From Lysobacter oculi (GTDB lineage Bacteria > Pseudomonadota > Gammaproteobacteria > Xanthomonadales > Xanthomonadaceae): a stretch of DNA of 64,000 nt. How positions within the stretch are numbered: position 1 is the stretch's first letter; each line of letters starts with the position of its first letter. The position numbers and the translations under genes were made by a program. The notes under the pieces are model-generated. The model did no database searches. It saw nothing but the letters and a program-made list of their open reading frames with translations, and was not told where the DNA came from. The stretch is taken from contig NZ_CP029556.1 of NCBI RefSeq assembly GCF_003293695.1, forward strand, positions 1,498,001-1,562,000, read 5' to 3'. Below, piece by piece: positions 1 to 19,651 of this stretch.

Positions 1-2152
1 CCTCCATTCGCTATCGGTGCTGGCAGCCTACGGGCTGTCGATCGACGTCACCAAGGACGGCGTCCGGGCCGCCGAGGCCAAGCGCGACAAGATCCATCAG
101 GACCACGTGGAGCTGCTGCAGGCATTCGTCTTGCAGAGGGGTGTTGGCGATTGGCCGCTGCAGCCGCCGCGGCCACAGGACGTCCAGGAACAATGGGATG
201 CGCTGATCGAACTTGGTCACGGCTTCGACCTCTCCAGGATGCGCCCACTCGACTCGGAGAGCGAATCCGACGCCCTCGTCATGCTGCAGGAGAAGATCCG
301 CAGCAATACACGCGCGGTCCGCAATTGGGGGTACTACCATCAGGTCAAGGACATCGGGCATCGGCTTCTGGCGCCGCTGGACGAGCGGATGCGATCCGTC
401 CTCGGATTCGCCGGTACCGAGCTGATCGCCGTCCTCGATAGCCTTGTCCGCGCGAACGAGGCGCGGATCACCGAACACCGAAGAAAGTTCTTCGGCGCTC
501 TCGGCAAGCCGAGCGTGCCCGAGATCGTGACCGCATACGCCGAGGCCATGCCTGCTGCCGATTGCAGCGGGCTTCTCGACTACTTCATCCGGAACGATTT
601 CAGCCCGCAGCAGGCCCGGGCCATGCTCCTGGCGCATTCCGAGCACGCGCTCGAGGCTTGCTTCACCCATGAAGCAGGCGAGGTTTCCGCAAGAGCCGGC
701 GTGGCTGTGGATCAGGTCAAGGCCATCTTCCAGGCATTGGGGATGCTTCCCGGCGAGTTGAACGACCGCACCCCAGAACTGTTCCTGCTCGACAACCCGG
801 TCTGGACGTCGCCTTGGATAACCCTTTCGGATGACACTATCTTCGCTTGCATCCCCCAGACCGGGTTCTCGTTCCTGTTCGAGATCGTTGAGCGGTTCGT
901 CGCGCCCAGTGAACAGCTCAAGATGGCCTGGCACGACCGGCGCGCCGCCTTCTTGGAGGCCGACGTTGCCGGCACTCTGTCGAGGGCCCTGCCCGGCGCC
1001 GCCGTGTACCGGAATCTGAGCTGGCAGGTATCCGGGACGGAACGGCACGGCGAAACCGATGTGCTGGTGGTGCTCGACAGCGTCGCGATCATCGTCGAGG
1101 CGAAGTCAGGATCGGTGTCCGCGCATAGCAAACGGGGCGCTCCGGACCGGCTCAAGTCGGAGATACGCGAGCTGCTGGAATCTCCGGCCCTGCAATCCCA
1201 GCGCCTGCACGCCGCGATGGAAGAGCACCGGTCCGGGGGGCGCCAGCTGGTCCTTTCCAAGCACGTCGACCTGTGGATGGTGCGGTATGTCATGCGGATG
1301 TCCGTCACGCTGGAGGACTTCAGCACGATCCAGTCCGACATCGGCAAGCTGCAGGCGCTCGGGCTGATCTCGAAGGATGTCGCGCCGGCGCCGACGTTGT
1401 GCTTGGCCGACCTCCATACCGTCGTCGAGATCCTGGATGCGCCGGTGATGTTTCTGCACTACCTGCACCGGCGGGTGCAGCTGGAAGGCAAGTTCTCGCA
1501 CGACTCCGACGAACTCGATCTGCTCGGCGCGTACCAGATAAACGGCCTGCTTTTTGGCCGGAAGGAAACCGATGGAACCCGCATCACCTTCTACCGGATG
1601 TCCGAGAAGATCGACCGCTACATGATGTCTCTCAGCGAAGGGATACGCACCGCGAAGCCCGGGCGGCGTCTGGACGGTCCTTGGGCAGGAATTCTCGAAC
1701 GCGTCCTCCAGGTGCGCTCCCATCGATGGCCGGAGATCGCCATCATGCTGCTGGATGCCGATGACCGTGCGCAGAAGACACTGGCGCGCGACATCCGGGA
1801 ACTCATCAAGAAGCATCGCTACCAGAAAACGACGCCTTACCAGAATATCCTCGTGTATCTTCCCGACGGCGTCGGCCTGAGCGCGATCACCGCCGTGGTG
1901 CTGCGCAAGGAGACCGTCGCGCATCGGCAGGAGATCGCCAGAGCGGCAGCGGAAAAGTCCTTCGAAGATCCGCGCCCCGTTCGCTGCTTGGTGCTCGTCT
2001 ACGACGCAGATGCCCCGACATTCCCGTACAATCACCTGATGTTGGCGGACCGTTTGCCGGCATCGGCCGGGGACGAGGTTGGCAACGCAGGGCCTCAGCT
2101 ACCAGATGGCACCTGCGACAGCCGGACGGAGCCGTCCGAGCACGCCTCATGA
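1..2152 (+). CDS. Large PD-(D/E)XK nuclease-like protein, 5' end cut by window edge
   Basis: The frame is open from the left edge of the window. The first in-frame start codon visible is a GTG at 17, but codons upstream are also open, so the true start may lie outside. Near the middle (numbered from the GTG at 17) is a stretch predicted as beta strands with E346-x-D348, a hydrophobic strand, then E361-A-K363. This is the D...ExK arrangement of PD-(D/E)XK or NERD-type nucleases. The rest, about 700 residues, is not recognised. The stop overlaps the start of the following DUF4238 gene by 4 bases (ATGA), so the two are probably translationally coupled. A role in nucleic acid cleavage, possibly phage or plasmid defence, is inferred from the motif and the island setting. 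The weak similarity and missing start limit confidence. Confidence 0.6.
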   Translation, partial: LHSLSVLAAYGLSIDVTKDGVRAAEAKRDKIHQDHVELLQAFVLQRGVGDWPLQPPRPQDVQEQWDALIELGHGFDLSRMRPLDSESESDALVMLQEKIRSNTRAVRNWGYYHQVKDIGHRLLAPLDERMRSVLGFAGTELIAVLDSLVRANEARITEHRRKFFGALGKPSVPEIVTAYAEAMPAADCSGLLDYFIRNDFSPQQARAMLLAHSEHALEACFTHEAGEVSARAGVAVDQVKAIFQALGMLPGELNDRTPELFLLDNPVWTSPWITLSDDTIFACIPQTGFSFLFEIVERFVAPSEQLKMAWHDRRAAFLEADVAGTLSRALPGAAVYRNLSWQVSGTERHGETDVLVVLDSVAIIVEAKSGSVSAHSKRGAPDRLKSEIRELLESPALQSQRLHAAMEEHRSGGRQLVLSKHVDLWMVRYVMRMSVTLEDFSTIQSDIGKLQALGLISKDVAPAPTLCLADLHTVVEILDAPVMFLHYLHRRVQLEGKFSHDSDELDLLGAYQINGLLFGRKETDGTRITFYRMSEKIDRYMMSLSEGIRTAKPGRRLDGPWAGILERVLQVRSHRWPEIAIMLLDADDRAQKTLARDIRELIKKHRYQKTTPYQNILVYLPDGVGLSAITAVVLRKETVAHRQEIARAAAEKSFEDPRPVRCLVLVYDADAPTFPYNHLMLADRLPASAGDEVGNAGPQLPDGTCDSRTEPSEHAS

Positions 2153-3198
2153 CGACAGCCTTCTCGACGACGACGGTGAAGCAGGCGCACGTAGCCAATC
2201 ACTACGTTCCCAGGCTCTACCTCAAGCAATGGTCCGCTTCGGGAATGATCCCTACGTACCGATTGCTGGTCCCGAACGAGTCCTGCTCGCTCTGGAAGCT
2301 GCAGTCTCTGAAGGGCATCGCTTATCACCAGCATCTCTATACCTATATCGCCGGAGACGAGGCCACCGACGAATTCGAGCGCTGGCTGGACAGCGAGTTC
2401 GAGGGTCCGGCCGAGGAGGCCATTGACCGCGTCGTTCGCGAAGACACGCTGACCCCCGAGCACTGGGCGCGTTTGGCGAGGTTCGCCGTAGCACAGGATG
2501 TGCGCACGCCTGCCCGGCTGAGGGAGTTCCTCGCGAGGCAGTCGGAGCAGATGCCCGACCTCTTGCAGCGCGTCGTCCAAGACTCCGTCCAGCAACTGGA
2601 GCAGGACGGATCTCCGGTCGGGCTTGGCTCGGCAGCACTTCAGGATGAATCCAAGGCGTTTCCGCTGAAGGTCACGATCGAACGCGAACCCGATGGTAGC
2701 GGGACGCTGAAGGCCACGACGCTGGTAGGAAGGAAGATGTGGATATGGAGCCAGCGCCACCTGCTCACGAGCACCATCCAGAAGCTTCCCCCAATCCGCT
2801 GGACAATCCTTCACGCACCCTCGGGCGTATCGTGGCCAACCTCGGACAACCCGCTTGTGCGACTGAATTTCTTCAACCCCACCAACTACAACTTCGGTGG
2901 CGGATGGGGCGTTCAGAACGGAGACATTCTCCTACCCTTGAGCCCCAAACACCTGCTTTACACCTGCATTGGCAGAAAACCGCGGCCCCGGGGAACCCCA
3001 CTGGACATGGGTACTGCGCTGCTTATCCGCCGGATTATCGTCGAGCACGCCGATCGCTACGTGTTTGCCGTGGAGCCGGGGGATATCCATTCGATTCGCC
3101 CGCGTATCGTTTCTCCGGAGGCTTGCAAGGCCGAGCGAGAAACATGGCAACGCTGGCATGACGATCAAAGCCACGCCGAGATCGCACTGGCACGGTAG
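2149..3198 (+). CDS. DUF4238 domain-containing protein
   Basis: The N-terminus carries the NHYVPRLYLKQW signature of DUF4238 proteins shortly after residue 15, and the length of 349 residues fits that family. The family has no established biochemical function. The ATG overlaps the stop of the upstream nuclease-like gene (ATGA), so they form one transcription unit. An HNH-type gene follows about 60 bases later on the same strand. No signal peptide or membrane segment is evident, so the protein is probably cytoplasmic. The tight coupling to a PD-(D/E)XK-like protein on a mobile island suggests a partner or accessory role there. That role is inference only. Confidence 0.75.
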   Translation: MTTAFSTTTVKQAHVANHYVPRLYLKQWSASGMIPTYRLLVPNESCSLWKLQSLKGIAYHQHLYTYIAGDEATDEFERWLDSEFEGPAEEAIDRVVREDTLTPEHWARLARFAVAQDVRTPARLREFLARQSEQMPDLLQRVVQDSVQQLEQDGSPVGLGSAALQDESKAFPLKVTIEREPDGSGTLKATTLVGRKMWIWSQRHLLTSTIQKLPPIRWTILHAPSGVSWPTSDNPLVRLNFFNPTNYNFGGGWGVQNGDILLPLSPKHLLYTCIGRKPRPRGTPLDMGTALLIRRIIVEHADRYVFAVEPGDIHSIRPRIVSPEACKAERETWQRWHDDQSHAEIALAR

Positions 3199-3259
3199 CG
3201 CCAATGGAGACGAATCAATGCGGCCAACTTCTGATCGCCAACATGTCGCTTAAATTGGC

Positions 3260-4108
3260 ATGCTGGAATCGAAGCCACGGCATTTCCACCTGGTCGGCAC
3301 AACCCCAATGGCAAGTACTCTCGTAGGCATCCCGCGCCTGATGCACCATACGTTCCCTCCATATGGGAGTTGCATCTACTGCGGCAGAACGGACGATCTG
3401 CGCACCGAGCACATCGTTCCGTACGGACTCGAAGGCAACCTGAAACTCCCCCGCTCCACGTGCGGCGAGTGCGCGGACCGCACCAGCAGGATCGAGCGGG
3501 CAGTCCTGCGCGGTGACTTCAGGGTGGTTCGTGTCTACCGCGGTCTGCAATCACGGCGGAAGCACGCCGGCGCGCCGGAGCTGTACGCGCTCAACATCAC
3601 CCGTGACGGGCAAGAGCAACAGGTTGAAGTGCCGCTGGACGAGTATCCCGTCGTCCTCCACTTCCCCATCTATCCACCGCCGCGAATCCTCACGACGTCA
3701 GAGAAACGGCCCGGCGTGGACATCAGGGGGGTCGACACGATCTCGTTCGGACCGAATCCACTTGAGGTGATGAAGAAGCTTGGCGCGCAGTCGATTGGCG
3801 CAACGCTTTCGCAGCGGCCCGCCGAGTTCGCTCGGATGATCGCCAAGATCGCCTACGCGATGGCGGCCGCCACCGGAACATTGAAACTGCTGGCCGAATC
3901 GTCGGAGCTGCCGGCCATGATACTGGGAGAAGACGATGCAATCGGTCATTTCGTCGGCACCATCGAAGAACCGAACGCCAGCCACCCCGAAATCCACCGC
4001 GTGCTGTTAATCGAAGACCGGGGCCGCGGCTTGCTGATCGGCGACGTGCAGATCTTCAGCGATTCGCACACCCCGAGGTACGGCGTCGTGATCGGAAAGC
4101 TTGCCTAG
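3260..4108 (+). CDS. HNH endonuclease-like protein
   Basis: The N-terminal part contains CIYC, then EHIVPYGLEGN, then CGEC, which is the zinc-ribbon HNH layout (C-x2-C, histidine in EHI, a GN pair, C-x2-C). The usual Asn after the last cysteine pair (CxxCN) is Ala here, so the site may be degenerate or belong to a variant group. The remaining 200 residues are not recognised. The start is uncertain: ATG codons at 3260, 3308 and 3341 all precede the zinc ribbon and none has a clear ribosome binding site. The gene is convergent with the KAP NTPase gene, and the two stop codons share a CTAG palindrome (4105-4108). It lies about 60 bases after the DUF4238 gene on the same strand. Confidence 0.65.
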   Translation: MLESKPRHFHLVGTTPMASTLVGIPRLMHHTFPPYGSCIYCGRTDDLRTEHIVPYGLEGNLKLPRSTCGECADRTSRIERAVLRGDFRVVRVYRGLQSRRKHAGAPELYALNITRDGQEQQVEVPLDEYPVVLHFPIYPPPRILTTSEKRPGVDIRGVDTISFGPNPLEVMKKLGAQSIGATLSQRPAEFARMIAKIAYAMAAATGTLKLLAESSELPAMILGEDDAIGHFVGTIEEPNASHPEIHRVLLIEDRGRGLLIGDVQIFSDSHTPRYGVVIGKLA

Positions 4109-6021
4109 CCGCCGTCGTCGCCACCTTGGGGTGCGACCCCAAGCACCTCATCCAGGCCGTGGATCAGGAGCCTTTGCAGTCGATCCTTTGAGATCGCCGA
4201 CATGCCCTCCGCCGCAGCTCGAATCCGGTCGCGGACCTCGACAGCCCAGGGCCGCTCGTCACTCAAGTCTTCATCGATCCGGCCGTGCTTATATCGAGCC
4301 TTGAGGGCAATCATTGCGTTCCGCTGGCCACGCGGCTCCAGCCCGAGGAACGCATCGACGAACCGAGCCGGATCCAGGGACGCCAGGACCGGGATGTCGT
4401 AGAACTCGTTATCTCCCTGATTCGTCAAGGAGACCCGACGTAGGAACAGGCCAGAATCCTCCTGCATGTTCGCCAACAACTCCTCGGCGATCGCGGGCCT
4501 GCGGTCGATATCGACAGCGCGGCGCTTTTCGTCCAGATAGTCGCGCAATCCAATGTACTCCTCCGACCGGGATTCGTGGAATCCCAGCCCGTCGTACGCG
4601 TCGAATGCCAGACCGAAATGGTCTTCGTGTCGATCCAGCGGCTCAAGCAGGCCGTTCGCGTACAGATAGTCCACGTATGCCCGACCGTCGGCGACTACCT
4701 GTTCGACACCATTTGCGATGCCTCCGATGCGCGAGAGCCAGAGCCGCAGTCCGAACACATGCAACACCTCTCCTGGAATCGTGTACTCGTGCGCGGCGAA
4801 TGCGCGCTCCATCTCTGCAAGCGCGCGATCGACCTCCTCCTCCGTCCGCTCATGCGAATGCCAGACAGTCCGCCAGGCAGGCTCCTGCGCAACCGTCACG
4901 AAGTACGAGCTCTGATCGAGCTCGTCACGTATCCGCTTCGGATCGACGACCCCCTTCACGATCAGGTCGATCAACGTGTCGTCCGACAGTGCGGTGGTGT
5001 CCAACTGCACTGTGGGATACCGCTTCTCCACCGCCAGTATCTCCGGCACTGGATCGCCCTCCTCGCGCGGCAAGTAGGCCGAAAGCAGATTGTTCTGGCG
5101 ATCCTGTATGTCGCCGGCCGACAGTCGCCCGGCCTTCACCTCGAAAGAAATCGCAAACAGCAGCCCCAGCAACGCCGTCAACGCTTTGTCGTGAGATCGG
5201 TGCCTATCGTCCAGAACGGCATAAAACCGCTCGAAGTCCCAGATTGCCTGCTGCAGTATCCGGAGATTGCCCAGCTCGGATTGGTGATAGATCTCGGAGA
5301 TGACGGACGCATTCGCCGCGACGGCTCCCCTTGCGCCGTCGTCTTTAACCGAAGCGATGAACGCAGCCTGCGCATCGTCAAAGGCCGATTGGACGTCAAA
5401 CATCCTTCCAACCACCTTCTCGCGAATGCGCTGGTAGTTCTCGTCCGCTATCTCGCTCTCGTTCGCAATGATGACGACCTTGCGACCTTCCTGTTCGACG
5501 AACACGTTGATGTAACCCATCACCGTGTTGATCGGCATCTGGCAACGCTCCAGGTCGTCGAATACATACAGATCAGACTTCGACCGATCGACGAAATCCT
5601 TTGACTCTAGATCGAGCTCCACATTGAAGTACTTCCCGACCATCTTGAGCGCACGGCCGCCAAGCGTGACGCCCTTCTTCTTTAGGACGGGATACATGGA
5701 TTGCAGAATGGCGTCGTCAATCTCATCGAGCGACCCGAGGCCATACAAGCTGACGTAGATGTATCGCGTCTTCTGACTATCGAGCGATTTGAGGAAGTTC
5801 TTGACTACGTATGTCTTCCCAATCCCCCACGGGCCGTTCAGTAGAACCGCGAACCCTGGCGGCGTCGAGAAAGACAGGTAGTAACGCAGGTATTCCTTGA
5901 CGTGATGGTTTCGGTCGTTGGCTGCAACGCCGCCCGAGGCATCCGCCGCGGGCTGGGACGCCGCGTCATCTGCCGCGACGCGGTTGGCCTTGGTCAGCCG
6001 TCTTCTACGCCAGTCAATCAT
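4105..6021 (-). CDS. KAP-family P-loop NTPase
   Basis: The protein has about 638 residues from the preferred ATG at 6021. Walker A is GPWGIGKT at residues 63-70, and a Walker B-like LYVFDDLERC lies near 151-160. Both match the KAP family of STAND-like NTPases. Unlike many KAP proteins, no obvious membrane helices are inserted between the two motifs, so it looks soluble. The frame stays open 120 bases further upstream, but that extension is Arg/Gly-rich without a start context. ATG 6021 is preceded by GGGGATA and leads into a basic N-terminus. KAP proteins are recurrent in bacterial conflict and mobile loci. The function here is not known. It is convergent with the HNH-type gene and overlaps it by 4 bases. 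Confidence 0.75.
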   Translation of the reverse strand: MIDWRRRRLTKANRVAADDAASQPAADASGGVAANDRNHHVKEYLRYYLSFSTPPGFAVLLNGPWGIGKTYVVKNFLKSLDSQKTRYIYVSLYGLGSLDEIDDAILQSMYPVLKKKGVTLGGRALKMVGKYFNVELDLESKDFVDRSKSDLYVFDDLERCQMPINTVMGYINVFVEQEGRKVVIIANESEIADENYQRIREKVVGRMFDVQSAFDDAQAAFIASVKDDGARGAVAANASVISEIYHQSELGNLRILQQAIWDFERFYAVLDDRHRSHDKALTALLGLLFAISFEVKAGRLSAGDIQDRQNNLLSAYLPREEGDPVPEILAVEKRYPTVQLDTTALSDDTLIDLIVKGVVDPKRIRDELDQSSYFVTVAQEPAWRTVWHSHERTEEEVDRALAEMERAFAAHEYTIPGEVLHVFGLRLWLSRIGGIANGVEQVVADGRAYVDYLYANGLLEPLDRHEDHFGLAFDAYDGLGFHESRSEEYIGLRDYLDEKRRAVDIDRRPAIAEELLANMQEDSGLFLRRVSLTNQGDNEFYDIPVLASLDPARFVDAFLGLEPRGQRNAMIALKARYKHGRIDEDLSDERPWAVEVRDRIRAAAEGMSAISKDRLQRLLIHGLDEVLGVAPQGGDDGG

Positions 6022-6339
6022 TGCGCTATCCCCATGTCGCCACCCTTTACTAACACGCCCCGAGCGGCGATTAGCCTCGCGGCACCCTAAGACGTCGCCC
6101 TCCGCGAAGCCTAGGGGTTTTCGTACCACATCCCCTTTCACCGGGGCTGACTAGTCGCATTCCGTGGATGTGGTCTGCGCCGCCACTAGAACCATAAGCT
6201 GAAATGATCTTAGGCTCCCGCGAAAGCGGGCTTTACTGCTTCCTGCATGGCCTTGCTCCAGCGGCCGCTATGGGTCGAGGCTGTGTGAAAACCCTGCCTC
6301 CACTGGCATGATCTGAGCACCGGTCGATGGGTGCTCTGC
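6022..6339. other. Non-coding stretch between KAP gene and transposase
   Basis: This stretch includes the upstream region of the KAP gene and, from 6276, the left end of the insertion sequence. A short strong hairpin with a GAAA tetraloop (CCCGC-GAAA-GCGGG, 6217-6230) is followed by CTTTACTGC. It could be a weak terminator, but no plus-strand gene lies immediately before it. No convincing promoter was seen. Confidence 0.4.
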
Positions 6340-7866
6340 ATGAAGCGATTTGTGGATGGCGTTGATCGTTCCCAGGGGCTTCTTCTCCCTGATCGGCTGG
6401 AAGACTACGTCCACGAAGACAACCCGGTGCGGGTGGTCGATGCCTTCGTCGAAGCGCTCGACCTGAGCGCGCTGGGCTTCGAGGCGGTCAATCGCGGGGC
6501 TGGTGGCCGTCCTGCCTATCACCCCGCCGCGCTGCTCAAGATCTACATCTACGGTTACCTCACTCGCATCCAGTCCAGCCGGCGCCTGGAACGGGAGGCG
6601 CAACGGAACCTGGAGCTGATCTGGCTGACCGGTCGACTGGCGCCGGACTTCAAGACCATCGCCGACTTCCGCAAGGACAACGGCGGCGCGATCACAGCCG
6701 TGTGCAGTCGGTTCGTCGCGCTGTGCCGGAACATGAAGGTCTTCTCGCATGCAATCGTCGCGATTGACGGCAGCAAGCTGAAGGCAGTGAACAGTCGGGA
6801 TCGCAACTTCACCGTCGGCAAGATCAAGGGGCGCCGGCAACAACTGGAGGACAGCGTTGCGCGTTACCTAGCCGAGCTGGACCGGTCAGATCGCGATCCC
6901 ACTTTGTTGCCAGAGGGCCGCGTTCCCCAGCTGAGAGACAAGCTGGCCAAGCTGCATGCGCAGATGGAGAAGCTCGACGAGATTGAAAAGCAGCTTGAGG
7001 CCACCCCCGATCACCAGATCTCGCTGACGGATCCCGACGCGAGATCAATGACCTCAAGTGGCCGTGGCACGGGCACGGTGGGCTACAACGTCCAGGCGGC
7101 GGTCGACGCCAAGCACCACCTGATCGTGGCATACGACGTGACAAACGACGGTCACGACCGTGCGCAACTCTCACGCATGGCGATGAAGGCCAAGGACGCC
7201 CTTGGCGCCGAGCATATGACGGCGCTGGCGGACCGTGGTTACTTCAGTGCCCCGGAGATCCTGGCGTGCGAGGAGGCAGGCGTCATCCCGTTGGTACCCA
7301 AGCCTCTGACATCCAACGCCAAGGCCGAAGGCCGGTTCGACAAACGCGATTTCGTCTACGACGAAGCCGCTGATGAGTACGAATGTCCGGCGGGCGAACG
7401 GGCGATCCACCGCTTTACGACAGAGGAGAAAGGGCTGACCTTGCACAAGTACTGGTCCTCCGCCTGCCCCCGCTGCCCAATCCGGAAGAAGTGCACGACT
7501 GCCAGCTACAGGCGTATCGGACGATGGGAGCACGAGCATGTGCTCGAACGAATGCAGATGCTGCTGGATGCCAGGCCGCAAACAGCGGTGGTGCGAAGGC
7601 AGACGGTGGAACATGTCTTCGGCACGCTGAAATCATGGCTCGGCACGACGCCGTTGCTGACGAAGACGCTACCGAAGGTCAAAACGGAGATCAGCCTGGC
7701 AGTTCTGGCCTACAACATGAAGCGGATGATCAAGATCATGGGCACCGAGGGCATGGTGCGGGCCATCGCAGCCTGAGCATCAAGTTCTTTTACTGCAGCG
7801 CTGGTTGCTCAAACTGGCTGCATCGTCGTCGGCAGCACCGCGCCCGGGAGTTTTTACACAGCCTCG
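6276..7866 (+). mobile_element. IS1182-family insertion sequence
   Basis: Near-perfect terminal inverted repeats bracket a transposase gene. The left end reads CGAGGCTGTGTGAAAAC (6276-6292). The right end (7850-7866) is its complement with a single mismatch (CGAGGCTGTGTAAAAAC). The element is about 1.59 kb, with one transposase frame filling most of it. If the ends start at GGCTGTG, the flanking tetranucleotides are TCGA on the left and TCGG on the right, which are similar but not an exact target duplication. The transposase is intact, so the copy may still be active. Confidence 0.85.
6340..7776 (+). CDS. IS1182-family DDE transposase
   Basis: About 478 residues from the ATG at 6340; a GTG at 6331 is an alternative start. 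The N-terminal region (YHPAALLKIYIYGYL followed by SSRRLEREAQRNLEL and DFKTIADFRKDN) is the conserved N-terminal domain of IS1182/IS5-like transposases. The catalytic acidic residues are plausibly the D in AIDGSK, the D in ALADRGYF and the E in VEHVFGTLKSW. The C-terminal part carries a Cys pattern (CP..CPIRKKC) typical of this group. The gene fills the space between the inverted repeats and shows no frameshift. It encodes the enzyme that moves the element. It has no apparent functional link to the neighbouring cargo. Confidence 0.93.
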   Translation: MKRFVDGVDRSQGLLLPDRLEDYVHEDNPVRVVDAFVEALDLSALGFEAVNRGAGGRPAYHPAALLKIYIYGYLTRIQSSRRLEREAQRNLELIWLTGRLAPDFKTIADFRKDNGGAITAVCSRFVALCRNMKVFSHAIVAIDGSKLKAVNSRDRNFTVGKIKGRRQQLEDSVARYLAELDRSDRDPTLLPEGRVPQLRDKLAKLHAQMEKLDEIEKQLEATPDHQISLTDPDARSMTSSGRGTGTVGYNVQAAVDAKHHLIVAYDVTNDGHDRAQLSRMAMKAKDALGAEHMTALADRGYFSAPEILACEEAGVIPLVPKPLTSNAKAEGRFDKRDFVYDEAADEYECPAGERAIHRFTTEEKGLTLHKYWSSACPRCPIRKKCTTASYRRIGRWEHEHVLERMQMLLDARPQTAVVRRQTVEHVFGTLKSWLGTTPLLTKTLPKVKTEISLAVLAYNMKRMIKIMGTEGMVRAIAA

Positions 7867-7920
7867 GCCGGAAACGGACAACGGTCAGCACCGGCCCGCA
7901 AGATTAAAAGCGGAATCATG

Positions 7921-7948
7921 ACGTGGAAACACCTGGGCGTTTCCACGT
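7921..7948. repeat. Perfect inverted repeat, 10-bp arms
   Basis: Arms ACGTGGAAAC (7921-7930) and GTTTCCACGT (7939-7948) are exact complements around the loop ACCTGGGC. It lies between the IS right end and the excisionase-like gene. No T-run follows on either strand, so a terminator is unlikely. Confidence 0.6.
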
Positions 7949-8140
7949 GAAGCAGAGTAATGGGGAGGCCAACATCTACAAGCATGGCGGGCACTCTCCA
8001 CAGGACGATCAACCTGTCCGATTCTTCATAAGAACTTTTGTCATGCACCCGAGTACGGAGCCCAACGCTTATCGCCCAACTTTTCGTGAAAGCGGGTAAG
8101 CAATGTGTTCTGTTTGGACGGCAAGCGCACAGACAGTCAG

Positions 8141-8155
8141 TGACATGAAATGTCA
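8141..8155. promoter_or_regulatory. Operator-like palindrome upstream of excisionase-like gene
   Basis: TGACAT and ATGTCA flank a 3-base centre, a perfect dyad of the size bound by small HTH dimers. It lies 110 bases before the HTH/excisionase-like gene. Its role as a binding site is inference. Confidence 0.3.
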
Positions 8156-8265
8156 GCAATGCTCTCGACTCACAGGATCAGCTGCAGGCTTAGGTTCGGA
8201 TTCAAGCCTTTTTTACCGTTCATTTCGCAACTTTGATGTAGGTACCTTGGGTGTAGTGTCTTTAC

Positions 8266-8697
8266 ATGGACACACATCCACGCCACCACACTTCAAGCCC
8301 GCTGCCGCGTTCGTCACTGGATGACGACTCATCGCAAACCAATTCGGTCACACGAGTATCTGGCTTGTCAGCCGAACTTCCCGAGCGACTTAGCGAATTA
8401 GAGGCAGCCCGATACCTCAAGAAATCCGTCATCACGTTGCGCAGGTACAGGCGAGACAGACGGATTGGCTATGGCCGCATCGGACGTGACGTCTACTTCA
8501 CAAAACAGCACCTAATGGCGTTTCTGGAGGCCAGCGAATGTCCCGCATCATTTACAGAATCACAGACGAGTACTCCCTTGTTTCCCGAAAAGGCACCGCG
8601 AACCTCTACCTCGAGTGGCGGGAAGGCGGACAGAAGGTCGCGCGCGCTACGGGCTGTAGCAGCCTTGACGATGCCAAACGACGCGCCCGCGAGCTGA
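8266..8697 (+). CDS. HTH excisionase-like protein (AlpA/HTH_17 type)
   Basis: Residues about 41-88 (LSELEAARYLKKS, then LRRYRRDRRIGYGRIGRDVYF and a following helix) match the winged/MerR-like HTH_17 fold used by excisionases and AlpA-type regulators. The remaining C-terminal 50 residues are low in predicted structure and overlap the start of the integrase gene by about 160 bases in another frame, so they may be dispensable. The gene is just upstream of the integrase on the same strand, the usual place for a recombination directionality factor. A DNA-binding role in excision or integrase control is inferred from fold and context. No strong ribosome binding site precedes the ATG. Confidence 0.75.
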   Translation: MDTHPRHHTSSPLPRSSLDDDSSQTNSVTRVSGLSAELPERLSELEAARYLKKSVITLRRYRRDRRIGYGRIGRDVYFTKQHLMAFLEASECPASFTESQTSTPLFPEKAPRTSTSSGGKADRRSRALRAVAALTMPNDAPAS

Positions 8698-9746
8698 TTC
8701 TCGAACTGGCCGAACTTCAGGACGAGCCTGCCGAGGAAGTGCCGATCATGGCGGTGCTTGATCGCTATTGGTTGAAGCATGGCGCCAATCTGCCCAGCAA
8801 GACCACTGTCAAGCGGGCCATCGCCCTGTGGCGCAAATTCTGGGGCGAGACGGCGACCGTCCCTGAGCTGACCATTGGGCGTCAGGAGGCATTCGTGGAC
8901 TGGTTGCGGGCTCGTGGCTACAGCGATGGATACCTGCGTCGCGTGGTCGGGGTCGGGCAGACCGCGCTGAATCGCGCCAGAAAGCGCCAGGAGCTCGACT
9001 CCGTCCCATTCATCGAACTACCGCCCGGTGGAGAGGCATTCCCGCACAGGGCCTCTAGGACTCAGCTGGTAACGCTGCTGAATACCCCCATGCCCCCTCA
9101 CGTCTGGACATACGTCCTCATCAGGCTCAACACGTGCTGCCGAGGTGATGCCGCGCTGGACTTGCAGCCCTATCTGGTGGATTTCGAGACGGGAATGGTC
9201 CGCCTCAACCCGGCAGGCCGTAGGCAGACCAAGAAACGTCGTCCGACCGTCCCGCTTACTAAGACGCTGGCCAAGCACCTCAAGGGTCACGAAGGCCCCT
9301 ACTACGCCGGCTGGCAGGGTCGTCGCACCCAGTCAATCAAGACAACTTGGCGCAAGATTCGGGCTGCGGCAAGGCTGCCCATATGGTTCGCACCCAAAGT
9401 ACTTCGGCACACCGTGGCCTCGGAACTGCGCCGGCGCGGTGTGCCGGAGTGGGACGTGAAGGGGTTGATGGGTCATACCGGCGGCGGGGTCACCGAGGGG
9501 TACGCCAAATTCGACGGCGCCAAGGTCAGTAAAGCCCTGGATGCATGGATGGCAGACCTTGCGAAAGACGTCCCGGCGCTGCGAAAGACGGGCGCAAAGC
9601 CTATCCAGGTGGTGCGCGGGGTCAGTACGGGGTCAGCCGCCTCACCAATGAAAACGGCGCATCCCGTAAAAGATGCGCCGTATCAACCACTTAAAGTGGT
9701 GGGCGGTACAGGGTTCGAACCTGTGACCCCTACCATGTCAAGGTAG
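8538..9746 (+). CDS. Tyrosine recombinase (site-specific integrase), reads into tRNA-Val
   Basis: 402 residues, the usual length for an island integrase. The start has a good GGAGG seven bases upstream. The N-terminal half holds an SAM-like core-binding domain. The catalytic set is visible: R202 (CCRGDAALD), K287-V-L-R290 in the box II position where HxxR is usual, H313 (GHTGG) and nucleophile Y322 (EGYAKF). The first box II residue is Lys, a tolerated variant. The last 16 codons (from residue 387) lie within the 3' half of tRNA-Val, giving the tail GGTGFEPVTPTM. The recombinase should act on the 3' end of that tRNA. The upstream excisionase-like gene overlaps its start. Confidence 0.93.
   Translation: MSRIIYRITDEYSLVSRKGTANLYLEWREGGQKVARATGCSSLDDAKRRARELILELAELQDEPAEEVPIMAVLDRYWLKHGANLPSKTTVKRAIALWRKFWGETATVPELTIGRQEAFVDWLRARGYSDGYLRRVVGVGQTALNRARKRQELDSVPFIELPPGGEAFPHRASRTQLVTLLNTPMPPHVWTYVLIRLNTCCRGDAALDLQPYLVDFETGMVRLNPAGRRQTKKRRPTVPLTKTLAKHLKGHEGPYYAGWQGRRTQSIKTTWRKIRAAARLPIWFAPKVLRHTVASELRRRGVPEWDVKGLMGHTGGGVTEGYAKFDGAKVSKALDAWMADLAKDVPALRKTGAKPIQVVRGVSTGSAASPMKTAHPVKDAPYQPLKVVGGTGFEPVTPTMSR
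9650..9681 (-). terminator. Rho-independent terminator of tRNA-Val, inside the integrase gene
   Basis: Read on the minus strand, ACGGCGCAT and ATGCGCCGT form a 9-bp stem around a 10-base loop (arms 9654-9662 and 9673-9681) followed by TTTTC. It lies 16 bases beyond the tRNA-Val 3' end and within the last codons of the integrase. The stem is perfect. Its function is inferred from position and the T-run. Confidence 0.65.
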
Positions 9747-9750
9747 TGCT
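9697..9750. other. Putative integrase-proximal attachment site (att) in the tRNA-Val 3' half
   Basis: The integrase frame ends inside this segment and the tRNA 3' end is the normal target of this enzyme class. The exact crossover cannot be placed because the partner att copy is not in the window. ACCACTT-A-AAGTGGT, an inverted repeat, sits at 9686-9700, at the tRNA boundary. Confidence 0.4.
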
Positions 9751-9771
9751 CTACCGCTGAGCTAACCGCCC
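9697..9771 (-). tRNA. tRNA-Val (anticodon GAC)
   Basis: A complete 75-nt cloverleaf can be folded by eye: acceptor GGGCGGT/ACCGCCC, D-arm GCTC/GAGC, anticodon stem CTACC/GGTAG with loop TTGACAT (anticodon GAC), T-arm ACAGG-TTCGAAC-CCTGT, discriminator A and an encoded CCA. It serves as the integration target of the island to its left. The type IV secretion locus begins 56 bases to its right. Confidence 0.97.
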
Positions 9772-9827
9772 ATAGGGAGCGGAATGGTAGTCGCCCCAAG
9801 GGTTCACTGCAAGTGCCGCGGGCGCGG

Positions 9828-10763
9828 CTAGGCGCCGCCGCCCACCGGGTTGCCTTGCTGGTCACGCGCCTGGCCCTGCCCGAACTGCGAGTAGGCGCTG
9901 AAGTTGGCCAGGGTGCCGTTGAAGAACATCGCCGCGATCGGTGGCGTGGCGATCAACAGCACGGTGAGGATCACGCCCAGCCCGGCCTGCTGCATGGCGA
10001 TGCTGTTGATGCCTTCGCCAGCGGCGGCACCGTTCATGATGATCTGGTACTTCACGAACATCGCCAAGGCGACCACCGCCACCATCTTCATCGCCACCGA
10101 CACCATGAAGGACAGGACGCCCAGCGAGAACGTGGTGCCGATGCCGTACTGCAGCCACTTGCCGAAGAGCGCCTTGGTGTTGTTGAACAACAGGCAGAGG
10201 ATGAACAACGGCCCCAGCCCGACAAACAGTGCCAGCGCCACCTTATAGGTCAGCAGCAATGCCCCGCCGATCACCGCCGGGCCGGCAACACCGAGCGTGC
10301 TCATCGTGGTGGCCTTGGTGAGTTGTTCCTTCCAGCTTTCGCCGACCGACAGCGAGGCGTAGCCGTCCATCAGCGCCGTGGTCGCCTGCATGAGCTGGAG
10401 GTTGCGGTCGATCTGCGAGGCGGGTGAGTCCTCATCGATGGCGACCAGACCCTGGATCGCCTTGGGCAGCGTATCGCTCAACAAACCCGAAATACTTTCG
10501 CCGCCGAACGAAAAACTCGTGGCGAGCAGCGTGATGAGCACTACCCTCATCGACTGGGTGACCAGCATCATCATCGGCTCGCGGGAACGCCCGGTCACGA
10601 TCAACCAGCCCTGGAACAGGATCCAGACCGTGATCATGGTCGTGCCGAACAGCAGTATCCACTGGATCAGCCCGGTCATCAGGTTGTGTCGGAAAGTTTC
10701 GATTTCCCCGTCAAGGAAACCGAAGATGGCCCTGAAAAACACCCACTGGCCTATGCCGTCCAT
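9828..10763 (-). CDS. virB6: Type IV secretion system inner-membrane protein VirB6
   Basis: 311 residues with at least five long hydrophobic segments (for example IQWILLFGTTMITVWILF, VALALFVGLGPLFILCLLF and LGVILTVLLIATPPIAAMFF). The region GLGPLFILCLLF followed by a conserved W is typical of the TrbL/VirB6 family. VirB6 is the polytopic component of the inner-membrane complex that helps pass substrate across the membrane. It is the last gene of the vir operon here, 40 bases after virB5. Its stop lies 56 bases from the tRNA-Val gene. The C-terminal tail is Gly/Gln-rich. Confidence 0.9.
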   Translation of the reverse strand: MDGIGQWVFFRAIFGFLDGEIETFRHNLMTGLIQWILLFGTTMITVWILFQGWLIVTGRSREPMMMLVTQSMRVVLITLLATSFSFGGESISGLLSDTLPKAIQGLVAIDEDSPASQIDRNLQLMQATTALMDGYASLSVGESWKEQLTKATTMSTLGVAGPAVIGGALLLTYKVALALFVGLGPLFILCLLFNNTKALFGKWLQYGIGTTFSLGVLSFMVSVAMKMVAVVALAMFVKYQIIMNGAAAGEGINSIAMQQAGLGVILTVLLIATPPIAAMFFNGTLANFSAYSQFGQGQARDQQGNPVGGGA

Positions 10764-10803
10764 TGCTTGAGTCCTTGTTCCATGCGCGGACAGGGCTCAC
10801 CCG

Positions 10804-11628
10804 TCACCGCCGTTTCGCCTTGACCAGATCACTGTCGAAAGCGAGTTCCATCACGATCAATGCCGCCGCGTTTCCGGCGAGTCGCCTGCCAGCCGAGGGG
10901 TTGCCATTGGCGGCATCCTGGCCGAGGCGTTCCTGTGACGACTTGAGGTAGGCGATCCTCGCCGCATAGGCATCGTCATAAGCCTTCTGCTGCTGCTGAT
11001 CGATCTGGATGAGCGCCAACAGCGCGAGCATCTTGTTGGTATTGCTCTGCAGCTCTCCAACATGCTCGCCATCGATCCGGGCGCGCTGGGTCTGGATGGC
11101 CTGCAGGCGTGCATAACGCTGCTCAGCGAGTTCACTCATCATCAAGCCGTATTTGAAACGCGCCTTTTCGGTCTCGACGATTTCCTTGCACAGCGTCCAC
11201 TGCTTGCCGGCATTGCCTTTGCCTTTGTCGGGCGCTGGCGGAAAAAGACGACGCACGCGATCGGTGATTTTCGGGAACTCCGGGATCTCCGGCTGTTTAG
11301 GCTCTGGACAACGGGCCTGCTCATCCATGCCCACCGACGACACCTGATCCTGCTCCTTGGCCGTGAACTTCCTGGGCGGATCCTTGAACCGGCCCTGCTG
11401 GGTCCCCTTCTTTGGCGCGTTCTCGAAGTCGCCCTGGCCGATGCGGTTCTGGCTGGCCAGCTTGTTGTCGACGTCATCGTCGTAAACGCGCCAGTCCGCG
11501 GATGCCGAGATGCTCAGGAGCAGCATGGCGACCAGACCCATCGACACGATGCGCCGGCCTATCCTGCGCACATCGATGCCGTACATCCCCAAGGCTTCAA
11601 TCGTGCCGGGGTAGCGACGCGTACTCAT
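10804..11628 (-). CDS. virB5: Type IV secretion system pilus-tip protein VirB5
   Basis: About 274 residues. The preferred ATG at 11628 overlaps the virB4 stop (ATGA) and has GGGAG eight bases upstream. A hydrophobic segment (IVSMGLVAMLLLSISASA) ending in an SASA cleavage site makes it a Sec-exported protein. The middle and C-terminal parts are predicted helical and coiled-coil (EIVETEKARFK through QIDQQQQKAYDD), the expected VirB5 architecture. VirB5 localises to the pilus tip and takes part in pilus assembly. Sequence similarity within this family is weak, so the call rests on position between virB4 and virB6 plus topology. Confidence 0.75.
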   Translation of the reverse strand: MSTRRYPGTIEALGMYGIDVRRIGRRIVSMGLVAMLLLSISASADWRVYDDDVDNKLASQNRIGQGDFENAPKKGTQQGRFKDPPRKFTAKEQDQVSSVGMDEQARCPEPKQPEIPEFPKITDRVRRLFPPAPDKGKGNAGKQWTLCKEIVETEKARFKYGLMMSELAEQRYARLQAIQTQRARIDGEHVGELQSNTNKMLALLALIQIDQQQQKAYDDAYAARIAYLKSSQERLGQDAANGNPSAGRRLAGNAAALIVMELAFDSDLVKAKRR

Positions 11629-14111
11629 GCGCATATCTCCCTCTTGTTCGCCCCTGATCGAGGCACGCGTGGAAGGGATTCTTCGCCCTTCAATCGCCGG
11701 CCGGGACCCTTGCGCCGCTCGTAGAAACCGGGGAGCCAGTGCTCCGGTCGAAGCTGATCGGTGCCCACGCCAAATGTCCCAGCCGTGTCATCCAGCACGG
11801 CATGCAGCACTTCGATGTTGTCGGTGCTGGCCGAGATCACCGCGAGGTGGTCGTCCATCCCGCGCAGATCCAACTGGCAGATGCTCGACGCATGTCCCTG
11901 CTTGACCAGGAAGGAACGCGAGCGCTCGTCCAGCCCGACCACGACCTCGTATTCCGCATCACTGAGCTTCAAGCCCTCCACATAATCCTGCCGGCTGGCA
12001 TTCGGGTTGGGCAGCAGGACCAGGGTCGCCGTCTGCTCGACCAATGCCGCGGCGATATCGCTTCGGAGCGCATCCTCGGGACTTTGTGTGGCAAAGATGC
12101 CCAGCCCGTTCTGCTTGCGGATGGTCTTCTGCTTGTTCTTGGCGAATTCCTTGAGGCCACCCTTGCCTTCCAGGATCTTCCAGAACTCGTCCATCACATA
12201 GATCAGCCGGCGGCCGTCGATGAGGGATTCCAATCGGTGCAACAGGTAGCGGATGACCGGCACGCGTACTTCTTCGTTTTCGATGAGGTCCGTGTAGTCG
12301 AAGCCGATGATCCGGCTGCGCGATAGATCGATGGTGTCGCGCGGGTTGTCAAAGACCCACCCCAGCGAGTTGCCACGCGTCCATTTGCGCAGGCGTGCAT
12401 ACAGGCCGTCATCGCCCATGTTGGGCAGGCTCTTCTGGAAGTTGGTCATGCTGCGGAGCGGCGCCGGCATGTCGAGCATCGCCTCCACGGCGCGGAAGAT
12501 GTCCTCCTCCTCGCGTGCGGAGTAGGACGGCTTGCCTGCCAGGATCTTCATCAGATCGGCGAGGAACTGGAGGTTGCCTTCATCCTTCTCGCACTGAAAG
12601 GGATTGAAGCCGGTGGGCGCCCCGCTTTCGAGCGCCAGGTAGTTGCCACCGCACGCGCGGACGAAGATCTCCGCACCCCGATCCTTGTCGAAGAAAAAGA
12701 TCGTCGGCGCCGGATCGAGCTTCTGCGTCTGGCTGAGAAGGAAGTTGATCAGCGCGGTTTTGCCTGTACCGGACTTGCCGATGACCATGGTGTTGCCGAT
12801 CGCCTTTTCGCCCAACGAATTCTCATTGGGCAAGGTGGCGTGGAAGTTGAAGTGATAGGCCTGCCCGTTGGTGGTCTGGAGCGTGGTGACGCATTCACCC
12901 CAGGGATTAAGTTCCTTCTTGCCGTTGGTGAAGTTGTGCAGGGGCGACAGCCCGAGGAAGTTGAGCGAACTCAGGTTGGCGATGCGGGTCCGGTAGCGCC
13001 AGTTCCCCGGGAACTGCGAGAAGAAGGCCGGAGCCACCGCGAGCGTCTCCTTGGTCGAGACAAAGCCGGCGTTCGACAACTCCGCGCGTGCCGACGCCAC
13101 CTGCTTCGACAGCGCTTCCTGGCTGTCGGCATAGAGGGTCATCATGAAGTGGTATTCGCCGAGCACGAAATTGCCCGAAGAAAGCTGGTCCATCGCCACA
13201 TCGAGCTCGGCGACCTGGCTGACCGCCCGGTCGCCCGACGAGATCATCATCCCCTTGGTGCGCTCGAGGGTCTTGAGCGCATCGTGACGGCCCATCGGAC
13301 TGAAGGAATGGGTAATGACGTAGCCGAAGTCCAGGTACTTCAGCCCATTGAGCACACCGGGGTGCGTGCCCTCCGGATACTCCTTGATATTGAGGATAGC
13401 GCCATACACCGTGCGGCCGTCCGGCGTGTTGATCATGAAGTCGCCGGTCCGGCTGGAAAACATCTGGCGGCTCACCGGCAGGTAGTCACGAACCGGTGCG
13501 GCGAGGACCGGCACCGGCTCATCCACGTGATTGAGCAGGTAGCCCTGCAGTTCGAGCAACTCCGAGAACACCACGCCGCTGTCCGCTTCGTACATGGCGA
13601 GTGGGCGCGGTGCGTATTCCTTCAACACCGCCTCTACGCTCGCCGACAGTTCATCGATGCGGTCCAGAGCTTCGCGTTGCTCGGCCTCCAGCCGGCCCAG
13701 ATTGCCGTGTTTCTCGTGCAACACCTTGCCGTCTGGTGAGGGGCGATAGAGCATCGTCAGGAACAGCTCGTTCTGCATCAGCTTCTGCGATGACAGCCGC
13801 TGGTGATAAAGGTCCGACATCGATTGGTTGAAATCCCCGGTGACGCGGGGGCGTGCATCGATGCGTTGCCGGCGGCGCACGTCGTGGACCCAGAACGCCA
13901 CGTTGACGTAATCCGGCGCGCGCAAGGACTGCAACAGGCGGTTGAAGGTGGCGTGCCTGTGTTCCAGCTCCCATGCCTCGCGCCCGACGAAAGGCATGCC
14001 GGCCAGCCGCCAGGCCACCATGAAGTCGCCGCCGGTGGTCTTGAGCACCCGGGCGGACACATGGGTCGAGAACGGCAGGAATTCGCTGGGCGAGGTGTCG
14101 GGCGTGAACAT
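11625..14111 (-). CDS. virB4: Type IV secretion ATPase VirB4
   Basis: 828 residues, the usual VirB4 length. Walker A is IGKSGTGKT at about residue 440-449 and Walker B is LIYVMDEF near 635, followed by the conserved FATQSPEDAL motif. The N-terminal domain (STHVSARVLKTTGGDFM) is the CagE/TrbE-type VirB4 N-domain. VirB4 is the large cytoplasmic ATPase that energises pilus biogenesis and substrate transfer. The gene follows virB3 by about 20 bases, has a GAGG before its ATG, and overlaps virB5. Confidence 0.96.
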   Translation of the reverse strand: MFTPDTSPSEFLPFSTHVSARVLKTTGGDFMVAWRLAGMPFVGREAWELEHRHATFNRLLQSLRAPDYVNVAFWVHDVRRRQRIDARPRVTGDFNQSMSDLYHQRLSSQKLMQNELFLTMLYRPSPDGKVLHEKHGNLGRLEAEQREALDRIDELSASVEAVLKEYAPRPLAMYEADSGVVFSELLELQGYLLNHVDEPVPVLAAPVRDYLPVSRQMFSSRTGDFMINTPDGRTVYGAILNIKEYPEGTHPGVLNGLKYLDFGYVITHSFSPMGRHDALKTLERTKGMMISSGDRAVSQVAELDVAMDQLSSGNFVLGEYHFMMTLYADSQEALSKQVASARAELSNAGFVSTKETLAVAPAFFSQFPGNWRYRTRIANLSSLNFLGLSPLHNFTNGKKELNPWGECVTTLQTTNGQAYHFNFHATLPNENSLGEKAIGNTMVIGKSGTGKTALINFLLSQTQKLDPAPTIFFFDKDRGAEIFVRACGGNYLALESGAPTGFNPFQCEKDEGNLQFLADLMKILAGKPSYSAREEEDIFRAVEAMLDMPAPLRSMTNFQKSLPNMGDDGLYARLRKWTRGNSLGWVFDNPRDTIDLSRSRIIGFDYTDLIENEEVRVPVIRYLLHRLESLIDGRRLIYVMDEFWKILEGKGGLKEFAKNKQKTIRKQNGLGIFATQSPEDALRSDIAAALVEQTATLVLLPNPNASRQDYVEGLKLSDAEYEVVVGLDERSRSFLVKQGHASSICQLDLRGMDDHLAVISASTDNIEVLHAVLDDTAGTFGVGTDQLRPEHWLPGFYERRKGPGRRLKGEESLPRVPRSGANKREICA

Positions 14112-14129
14112 GGGGACCTCAGGTCGACG

Positions 14130-14441
14130 TCAGGGCTTGCGGGCCGGCTTGCCGCGATAGGCATTGGGGTTGAACACCCAGAGACCGGCGTGCCGGTCCC
14201 TGTTGCGCATCCGCAATCGCATGCCGATGGAGAGCCCGAGCAGCCGGAAGATCATTTCGTCGCGCTTGGCCATCATCCGCATCAGGTGGATGACCACGGG
14301 CGCGAATACGAGCAGGAGCAGGTTGCCGCTGTACATCGCGACAAGCAGGACGCCCCCGGCACCGATGAAGAAGGGAATATAGGGAACCCCCATGAACATC
14401 GGTGGCCGGGTGCATCCCCGGAACACGGTGCTCTTATGCAT
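14130..14441 (-). CDS. virB3: Type IV secretion system inner-membrane protein VirB3
   Basis: 103 residues with a short N-terminus containing CTRPPMFMGVPY, then a hydrophobic hairpin (FFIGAGGVLLVAM and LLLLVFAPVVIHLM). This is the VirB3/TrbD pattern. It overlaps the end of virB2 by 8 bases and precedes virB4, its known functional partner in the inner-membrane complex. Length and position both fit. Confidence 0.9.
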   Translation of the reverse strand: MHKSTVFRGCTRPPMFMGVPYIPFFIGAGGVLLVAMYSGNLLLLVFAPVVIHLMRMMAKRDEMIFRLLGLSIGMRLRMRNRDRHAGLWVFNPNAYRGKPARKP

Positions 14442-14829
14442 TCAATGTGGGCGCGACATGGACCACCTGGGCGGTGGTGCAGTCCTCGCTGAAATCGCCG
14501 TTGCCGATCACCATGACCGCGATCTGGCCCGCCGCGCCGATCAGCAGGCCGCCGATCAGGATCGGCGCGACATCGGAAATGCGCTTATGGGCGAAGGCGA
14601 TCTGGTAGCCCGCGAAGATGATGGCGATGGTGACGATGAGGATCGACGCAACCTTGAGGATGGTATGCACATTGCCCATCACGCCACAGAGCTTGGTTTG
14701 CGCTTCGGTGCCGCCCGGCGACGGATCAAGGCCATGCGCCATCGCGGCCGGAATGATCAGCAGGTAGGCGAGCAGGATCAGCAGTGCAGACAGTTTCATG
14801 CGGCTCGGCAGCTTGGTCGGGAACTTCAT
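14434..14829 (-). CDS. virB2: Type IV secretion major pilin VirB2
   Basis: 131 residues. A signal peptide (LLILLAYLLIIPAAMA) is followed by a mature region with two hydrophobic helices separated by a short basic loop (FAHKRIS), the standard VirB2/TrbC pilin fold. Two cysteines flank the helices. The mature protein should polymerise into the secretion pilus. It lies between virB1 and virB3 and overlaps virB3 by 8 bases. Confidence 0.9.
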   Translation of the reverse strand: MKFPTKLPSRMKLSALLILLAYLLIIPAAMAHGLDPSPGGTEAQTKLCGVMGNVHTILKVASILIVTIAIIFAGYQIAFAHKRISDVAPILIGGLLIGAAGQIAVMVIGNGDFSEDCTTAQVVHVAPTLNA

Positions 14830-14871
14830 AGGTGTTGCATCCTTCTTCGCGGGTTGAGGGTTGGAACGGAA

Positions 14872-15627
14872 CTAGAAAACGAAGGCGTCGTCGCGGGATT
14901 CCGCAGGCGGAACGGGTGAACCGGGCTTCGGTGTTTCCATGCCGCCCAGGCGAATGGCGACGGGCGGCTCGCCGGCGGCAGGGGTCTGCCGGGTAATCAG
15001 CGAAGCCGCATCCGATGTGGGTGATGGGCTCTGACCCGACGCAGGTTGGCCCCTTCGCTCGACCAGACCCTGTACCGGTTCTGCACCCGGCCGCGCTTCA
15101 TCAACACTGGTGGTGTCCGTGCGCATCGCGGGCACAGGTCTGGACGGCCGGTTGACGATGACCGGGATGGCGAGCGCGGGACGCTTCGAACCCTGCTGGG
15201 CCAGCATCGAACGCTGGACCTTCTGCACGTAGCCGTGCCGATATCCGGTGGTGAAGTTGCCGGAGTAATAGCAACTGAAAGCCTTGCCCCAGTCGCCCCC
15301 GGCACGCGCATGGCATTCGCGGAGGATGCGCGAACCGGCCAGCAGGTTGATGCACGGCGTGAATGCCGCGCTGAAGCCCGGCACACCGAACTTCGGCAGG
15401 TTGTAGCGATTGACCTGGGCAAGACCGAGCGAAAAATTGATGCCGCGTGCTTCGAGCATCTCGGCGGTGGCCACGGCTTCGGCCAGGGTGCGTGGCTGCC
15501 GGGCCAGCCTTCCGCCCACCACGCCGATGGCATAGGGGTTGTAAGAAGACTCGACCTTGACGACGTGATGCATCACCGAGGCAGGCACCTCGACACGACA
15601 TCCCATCAATTCCATTCCCGGAAGCAT
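14872..15627 (-). CDS. virB1: VirB1 lytic transglycosylase of the type IV secretion system
   Basis: 251 residues. The N-terminal 150 form an SLT-type transglycosylase domain: the catalytic Glu is in VVKVESSYNPYAIG, followed by GLAQVNRYNLPKFG and a C-terminal AFSCYYSGNF motif. The remaining 100 residues are a Pro/Gly-rich tail. No clear signal peptide is present at the annotated ATG (15627), as is often so in VirB1 proteins. It would open the peptidoglycan locally for assembly of the secretion channel. A 100-base gap with inverted repeats separates it from virB11. Confidence 0.93.
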   Translation of the reverse strand: MLPGMELMGCRVEVPASVMHHVVKVESSYNPYAIGVVGGRLARQPRTLAEAVATAEMLEARGINFSLGLAQVNRYNLPKFGVPGFSAAFTPCINLLAGSRILRECHARAGGDWGKAFSCYYSGNFTTGYRHGYVQKVQRSMLAQQGSKRPALAIPVIVNRPSRPVPAMRTDTTSVDEARPGAEPVQGLVERRGQPASGQSPSPTSDAASLITRQTPAAGEPPVAIRLGGMETPKPGSPVPPAESRDDAFVF

Positions 15628-15651
15628 TCCCTTGTTCCTTCCATGTCCCCG

Positions 15652-15685
15652 CGCGAAATCATTTCGCGTGGTCGATTAATCCACG
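15652..15685. promoter_or_regulatory. Overlapping inverted repeats between virB11 and virB1
   Basis: CGCGAAAT-C-ATTTCGCG (15652-15668) is a perfect 8-bp dyad. It overlaps CGTGG-N9-CCACG (15667-15685), whose loop is TCGATTAAT. This is the largest gap inside the vir operon except around virD4. It could be an operator or promoter for the virB1-B6 half, or an RNA stem that reduces read-through from virB11. Only the repeats are directly visible. Confidence 0.4.
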
Positions 15686-15728
15686 GCTGCGAAGAGGCAG
15701 CCATCGGAAAACCACTCGCCGCCCTGCC

Positions 15729-16766: not shown

Positions 16767-16775
16767 CGTGACGGC

Positions 16776-19611: not shown

Positions 19612-19651
19612 GGACGCTGCGCCTTTCCGGTCATCGCATGACGCGGCGCGT

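Follow-up and report, generated by a model that had tools for sequence, protein, structure and literature searches.

A DUF4238-domain protein, acting alone, gave strong resistance to phage T7 according to a paper in Cell Host Microbe 2022 (PMC9122126), and DUF4238 is counted as a defence system in PMC10855318, PMC11291487 and PMC12629846. Upx, a protein of about 1270 amino acids with an E-x-K motif near its C-terminus, is a defence nuclease (PDB 9wuf). Both bear on a stretch of 64,000 nucleotides of Lysobacter oculi (the window, C1:1498001-1562000, in a 2.59-Mb genome of one contig), at whose left end lie genes for a large protein, here called BIG, a DUF4238 protein, an HNH-like protein and a KAP NTPase. 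The first-pass annotation saw in them a candidate new defence module of four genes, with the place of the KAP gene in it left unclear. All four reading frames are there, the first cut by the window edge, and the first three run on one strand, convergent with the KAP gene on the other, just as it described. I propose, with a confidence of about two in three (0.68), that these are independent defence genes on an island at tRNA-Val and that BIG is a defence nuclease consisting of a single protein.

The BIG family

BIG has 788 codons. The motif E346/D348/E361-x-K363 reported for it earlier, numbered from the GTG at 17, is real and corresponds to E423, D425, E438 and K440 of the full-length protein. 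It is near-invariant in 27 aligned members of the family: D425 and K440, and E391 as well, are present in 27/27, E423 in 26/27 (one gap) and E438 in 26/27 (one Q). An AlphaFold2 model of the 716 amino acids within the window (predicted local distance difference test, 84.9; predicted template-modelling score, 0.85) has a core made of a helix (304-329 in model numbering), strands (334-368) and a second helix (381-410), where E391, E423-x-D425, E438-x-K440 and Q470-x2-R473 (full-length numbering) are found. The PD-(D/E)XK superfamily is recognized by its core fold and by E, D and E-x-K residues, and BIG has both. The predicted fold and the residues thus bear out the suggestion that the large protein is PD-(D/E)XK-like, and they support reading it as a nuclease of that superfamily. 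The last 29 residues of BIG are poorly modelled and extend past the end of most aligned relatives.

The family is widely but thinly spread. When each species was scanned in a single genome, relatives appeared at 29 loci, and there are relatives in 18 plasmid records and one viral contig; phage records gave no match. In the same class, 6 of 368 other genomes have one (7/369 with its own; E ≤ 0.001), as does 1 of 148 genomes of close relatives. The hosts, going by record titles, include alpha-, beta- and gammaproteobacteria, Desulfobacterales, Sulfurospirillum, Nitrospirales, Gemmatimonadetes, Acidobacteria, Magasanikbacteria, Bacillota, actinobacteria, Pontibacter and a haloarchaeon, several of these records being metagenome assemblies, and the most distant relatives (including the actinobacterial, Pontibacter and haloarchaeal ones) align over just 38-57% of the length. 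Three relatives are split over two reading frames (L031:9785-12109, L052:9011-11197, L053:9929-12169) and have probably decayed.

What recurs with BIG is not the set of genes found beside it here. Relatives with flanking sequence were collected at 41 loci, amounting to 40 places because L018 and L041 lie on the same contig, and including 4 of the 18 plasmid records. None of the 646 predicted proteins of at least 80 amino acids from these loci reached E ≤ 0.05 against the DUF4238 profile or against HNH or KAP, nor did blastp at 1e-4 find the same three families around BIG relatives, and no protein cluster other than BIG occurs in more than four of the loci. The same-class draw, searched with BIG, DUF4238 and HNH at E ≤ 0.001 (KAP was searched for in 17 genomes of the genus), found BIG in 7, DUF4238 in 2 and HNH in 1 of the 369 genomes, its own counted each time, and no genome but this one has two of the three. 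A four-gene module was rejected on co-occurrence: among the other loci and genomes searched, none was found to have the genes side by side, which is an outcome that the first-pass annotation had named as refuting its proposal.

No family model in the libraries searched fits BIG, conserved though it is across distant phyla, and this is why annotation by library would have overlooked it. NCBIfam gave no match at E ≤ 1, the window protein being the sole member tried, and no publication on BIG was found among the papers listed by searches on NERD-domain anti-phage proteins and on single-gene or SEC-C nuclease defence.

Neighbourhoods and a possible likeness to Upx

The genes around BIG were compared with a control. 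The neighbours were 115 proteins, from at most two genes (of at least 130 amino acids) on each side of 32 relatives; the duplicate L018 and eight relatives that blastp scored at no more than 85 bits, or not at all, were left out of the 41 loci. For the control, 18 random 10-kb stretches in three genomes (drawn from 140) supplied 115 proteins. The neighbours matched 185 PADLOC families at E ≤ 1e-10 and the control 9, families that overlap and include generic helicases in both sets; at E ≤ 1e-45 the figures are 28 (25 shown) and 0. Scanned singly, five of ten large neighbours picked by hand matched PADLOC at 1e-10: a type IIG enzyme, a RecD-like helicase, MzaA, Upx and Dsr1. BIG belongs to an unnamed, widely scattered family of putative nucleases, usually stand-alone and often among known defence genes. 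At one locus, L035, a true Upx gene (1473-5264; 1263 amino acids, motif at about 1151-1170) and a BIG relative (6193-8562) lie about 0.9 kb apart and are divergent.

Is BIG itself akin to Upx? Its motif, unlike that of Upx, is central (423-440). The structural match of BIG falls in the N-terminal region of Upx and a weak profile match in the C-terminal one (966-1208), so the two hints disagree. A profile of two Upx sequences scored 33.6 against BIG (hhalign probability 4.6%), with a maximum of 23.5 among 100 column-shuffled decoys; with one Upx sequence by itself the score was 23.9, tenth among 247 proteins (BIG itself came first) and behind others such as HsdR, itself a nuclease, at 28.9. The profile match is therefore not significant in a fair control, and sequence proof of kinship was rejected. 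The Upx profile of PADLOC, confirmed to be present in the library, does not match BIG at E ≤ 1 or any of the 27 members at E ≤ 0.01, and Upx is not listed up to E 10 in a PDB sequence profile search with BIG. Further Upx sequences appeared in none of 239 genomes, where control genomes were silent too, so absence is not implied. A viral-contig scan gave no relative and megablast with a Salmonella fragment no match in E. coli; two queries of plasmids gave six records each, only one place among them, in the second query's own record, covering 80% of a query. No paper on the Upx structure was found, and Upx, like Qat, reportedly goes back to Gao et al. 2020.

I hold it less likely than not, but worth stating, that BIG is the compact form within a wider class of single-protein immune nucleases akin to Upx, in which a helical sensor half would be joined to one PD-(D/E)XK module, and Upx would be longer by an extra nuclease module. 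NERD (PF08378) matches weakly across the nuclease core of BIG (E 0.013), at 16.4 bits against a gathering score of 22.1, and 2 of the 27 members match it at E ≤ 0.01. The name of Shedu (SduA), for which PADLOC-DB presumably holds a model, is not among the PADLOC matches of BIG or the 27 members.

Each gene is most likely its own system (DUF4238, KAP as PDC-S49, the upstream Qat and type I restriction genes, and BIG). How might BIG act? Its helical part before the core (model 1-300, about 73-372 full-length) would recognise some mark of infection or a feature of nucleic acids, a DNA end for example, and recognition would release the PD-(D/E)XK centre (E391, D425, E438, K440) to cut DNA. I infer this division, by which the helical N-terminal half senses and the nuclease half cuts a DNA substrate, by analogy with Shedu as presented in PMC12904381.

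Companion genes and the island

The earlier assignments of the DUF4238 and KAP genes hold, at 88.3 bits against a Pfam cut-off of 27 and 54.1 against 20. That of a zinc-ribbon HNH protein holds in part: the frame is present, but its HNH_5 score of 21.2 is below the cut-off of 27.5. Only three matches to the HNH-like protein were found, partial and on plasmids.

The DUF4238 gene carries the domain of a single-gene anti-phage system (the T7 study being that of Rousset et al.), and its relatives occur elsewhere without the other three genes; unlike the known system, it here adjoins BIG. As a start, a GTG at 2176 agrees better with its relatives than does the ATG at 2149, whose frame overlaps BIG, and with the GTG there would be no overlap. 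Since BIG's tail also runs past most aligned relatives, the junction looks as if it were recent. The closest relatives of the DUF4238 protein found share 62, 59, 59 and 56% identity with it and come from virus-classed contigs; two of their loci (L061, L062) have tail-type genes nearby, P2-like by eye. BIG, HNH and KAP were absent near DUF4238 at seven viral-contig loci and two plasmid regions, some with short flanks. In the taxonomic family 19 of 198 genomes, its own included, have DUF4238 at E ≤ 0.001, 17 of them above the cut-off; phage records gave no match. Single-protein scans of viral contigs with DUF4238, HNH and KAP gave no relative; the DUF4238 relatives there were recovered instead with an alignment query.

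The PADLOC comparison left BIG without a good match and identified KAP as PDC-S49 (residues 75-668 of the open reading frame on 3-614 of 624 profile positions, E 4.7e-214). No difference between the two was seen, PDC-S49 being a candidate single-gene system only, and no paper was found under that name. Within the genus, KAP is in 1 of 17 genomes, its own.

That the genes sit on an integrase-bearing island is supported. The integrase-like gene overlaps tRNA-Val, 48 bases of which recur exactly far upstream (Table 1), giving a presumed 74.7-kb island that ends on the right with the integrase. A second exact copy, shifted by one base, is at C1:1416472-1416519; the two upstream copies are 16.6 kb apart, which suggests two tandem islands. 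The 15 kb upstream of the window were read as well (L002, from window -15000 onward). The order is type I restriction M, S and R, the metallopeptidase-like gene, QatA-B-C-D and a short opposite-strand gene, then IS1182, BIG, DUF4238, HNH-like, KAP, IS1182, integrase and tRNA-Val. HsdR, Qat, DUF4238, KAP and the right IS1182 are named from profile matches; M, S, metallopeptidase and integrase were recognised by eye. With Qat, HsdR, DUF4238, PDC-S49 and the tRNA-end repeats, the idea of a defence locus on a mobile element stands.

Table 1. Features in and upstream of the window (window coordinates unless marked)
Feature	Position	Strand	Remark
Type I restriction genes (M, S, R) and small metallopeptidase-like gene	L002:1-7100 (window -15000..-7900)		
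QatA region	L002:7000-9033 (window -8000..-5967)		
Short gene between QatD and IS	L002:12078-12872	opposite	MobI match, E 0.024
IS1182-family transposase, left copy, inverted	-1964..-519	-	named from likeness to right copy
BIG, 788-amino-acid stand-alone PD-(D/E)XK protein	-214..2152	+	215 bases precede window (position 0 counted)
PD-(D/E)XK core of BIG	911..1231	+	predicted model and conserved residues
DUF4238 protein	2149..3198	+	PF14022, E 7.5e-25
HNH_5-like zinc-ribbon protein	3260..4108	+	under Pfam cut-off
KAP P-loop NTPase, PADLOC PDC-S49	4105..6141	-	likely start in-frame ATG at 6021
IS1182-family transposase, right copy	6331..7776	+	profile match
Tyrosine-integrase-like gene, overlaps tRNA-Val	8538..9746	+	recognised by eye
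tRNA-Val	9697..9771		
Presumed island end, 48 bp	9697..9744	.	exact repeat at C1:1433069-1433116

The four Qat genes each have a PADLOC match, and QatB, QatC and QatD pass the NCBIfam cut-off; QatA has 417.5 bits against 600. The first part of QatA, up to the Walker A motif, appears out of frame with the remainder, so the system may be broken here or a sequencing error present. The restriction and metallopeptidase-like genes share the island with the BIG block. The MobI match of the short gene is weak and below threshold. VirB-like type IV secretion genes, seen by eye at window 9800-20000, lie beyond the tRNA and outside the presumed island.

IS1182 has five copies inside the presumed island; across the genome, nine or more copies are near full length. 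The two that flank the gene cluster are inverted, and the elements are 91% identical. The right one (6300-7880) is nearly identical to C1:1433284-1434854, near the far island end, and its outermost inner-end bases are mismatched; no target duplication was seen around the pair by eye. A recent composite transposon is unlikely given the 91% identity, the end mismatch and the closer match to the far-end copy, and this reading was rejected. Most likely the block forms part of a mobile island, inserted at tRNA-Val, that carries several separate defence genes.

Other readings, and what BIG may mean

Several results weigh against BIG as a lone defence nuclease. Foldseek with its model gave no match under E 0.001, the best PADLOC value for the window protein was 0.023, and the 27 members matched two PADLOC families, one weak match each. 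The neighbourhood test tallies families rather than proteins, against a small control that was drawn from just three genomes and has somewhat fewer residues (42,756 vs 49,401), and the other five of the ten hand-picked neighbours gave no PADLOC match at 1e-10. The anti-phage function itself I infer from sequence, model and context. A local operon is possible too, as BIG, DUF4238 and HNH follow one another at short distances and share a strand.

BIG might serve the element or cell otherwise, in plasmid competition, recombination or repair; some relatives are plasmid-borne, and a few of these have replication or resolvase-like genes close by. I consider this unlikely, because defence is the recurring theme among the neighbours and BIG is sporadic in its class. 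Quite improbable is a lineage-specific operon in which BIG, DUF4238 and HNH, assembled by chance on the island, cooperate. The three share a strand, the BIG stop overlaps the DUF4238 frame in ATGA, 61 bases precede the HNH frame, and the HNH protein is unmatched in 368 other genomes of the class (E ≤ 0.001). Yet at the loci examined neither BIG nor DUF4238 was found in the company of the other, the GTG at 2176 would abolish the overlap, and a DUF4238 protein is effective alone elsewhere. A true system of four genes, adjacent as they are between two IS1182 copies, is scarcely credible, with two of them known or catalogued as systems of one gene, KAP convergent and unmatched around BIG relatives, and the other three absent by tblastn from 3/3 KAP plasmid regions viewed (of 42 records).

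The view of BIG as one defence gene among several corrects the proposal of a four-gene system, which was plausible but is not supported. Defence nucleases of a single protein are easily tested and widely distributed, and BIG, if protective alone, adds a one-gene system; its possible structural likeness to Upx would then make infection sensing by such proteins directly testable. Were the kinship with Upx true as well, this would be a new and widespread one-gene defence system, reaching across several bacterial phyla and haloarchaea.
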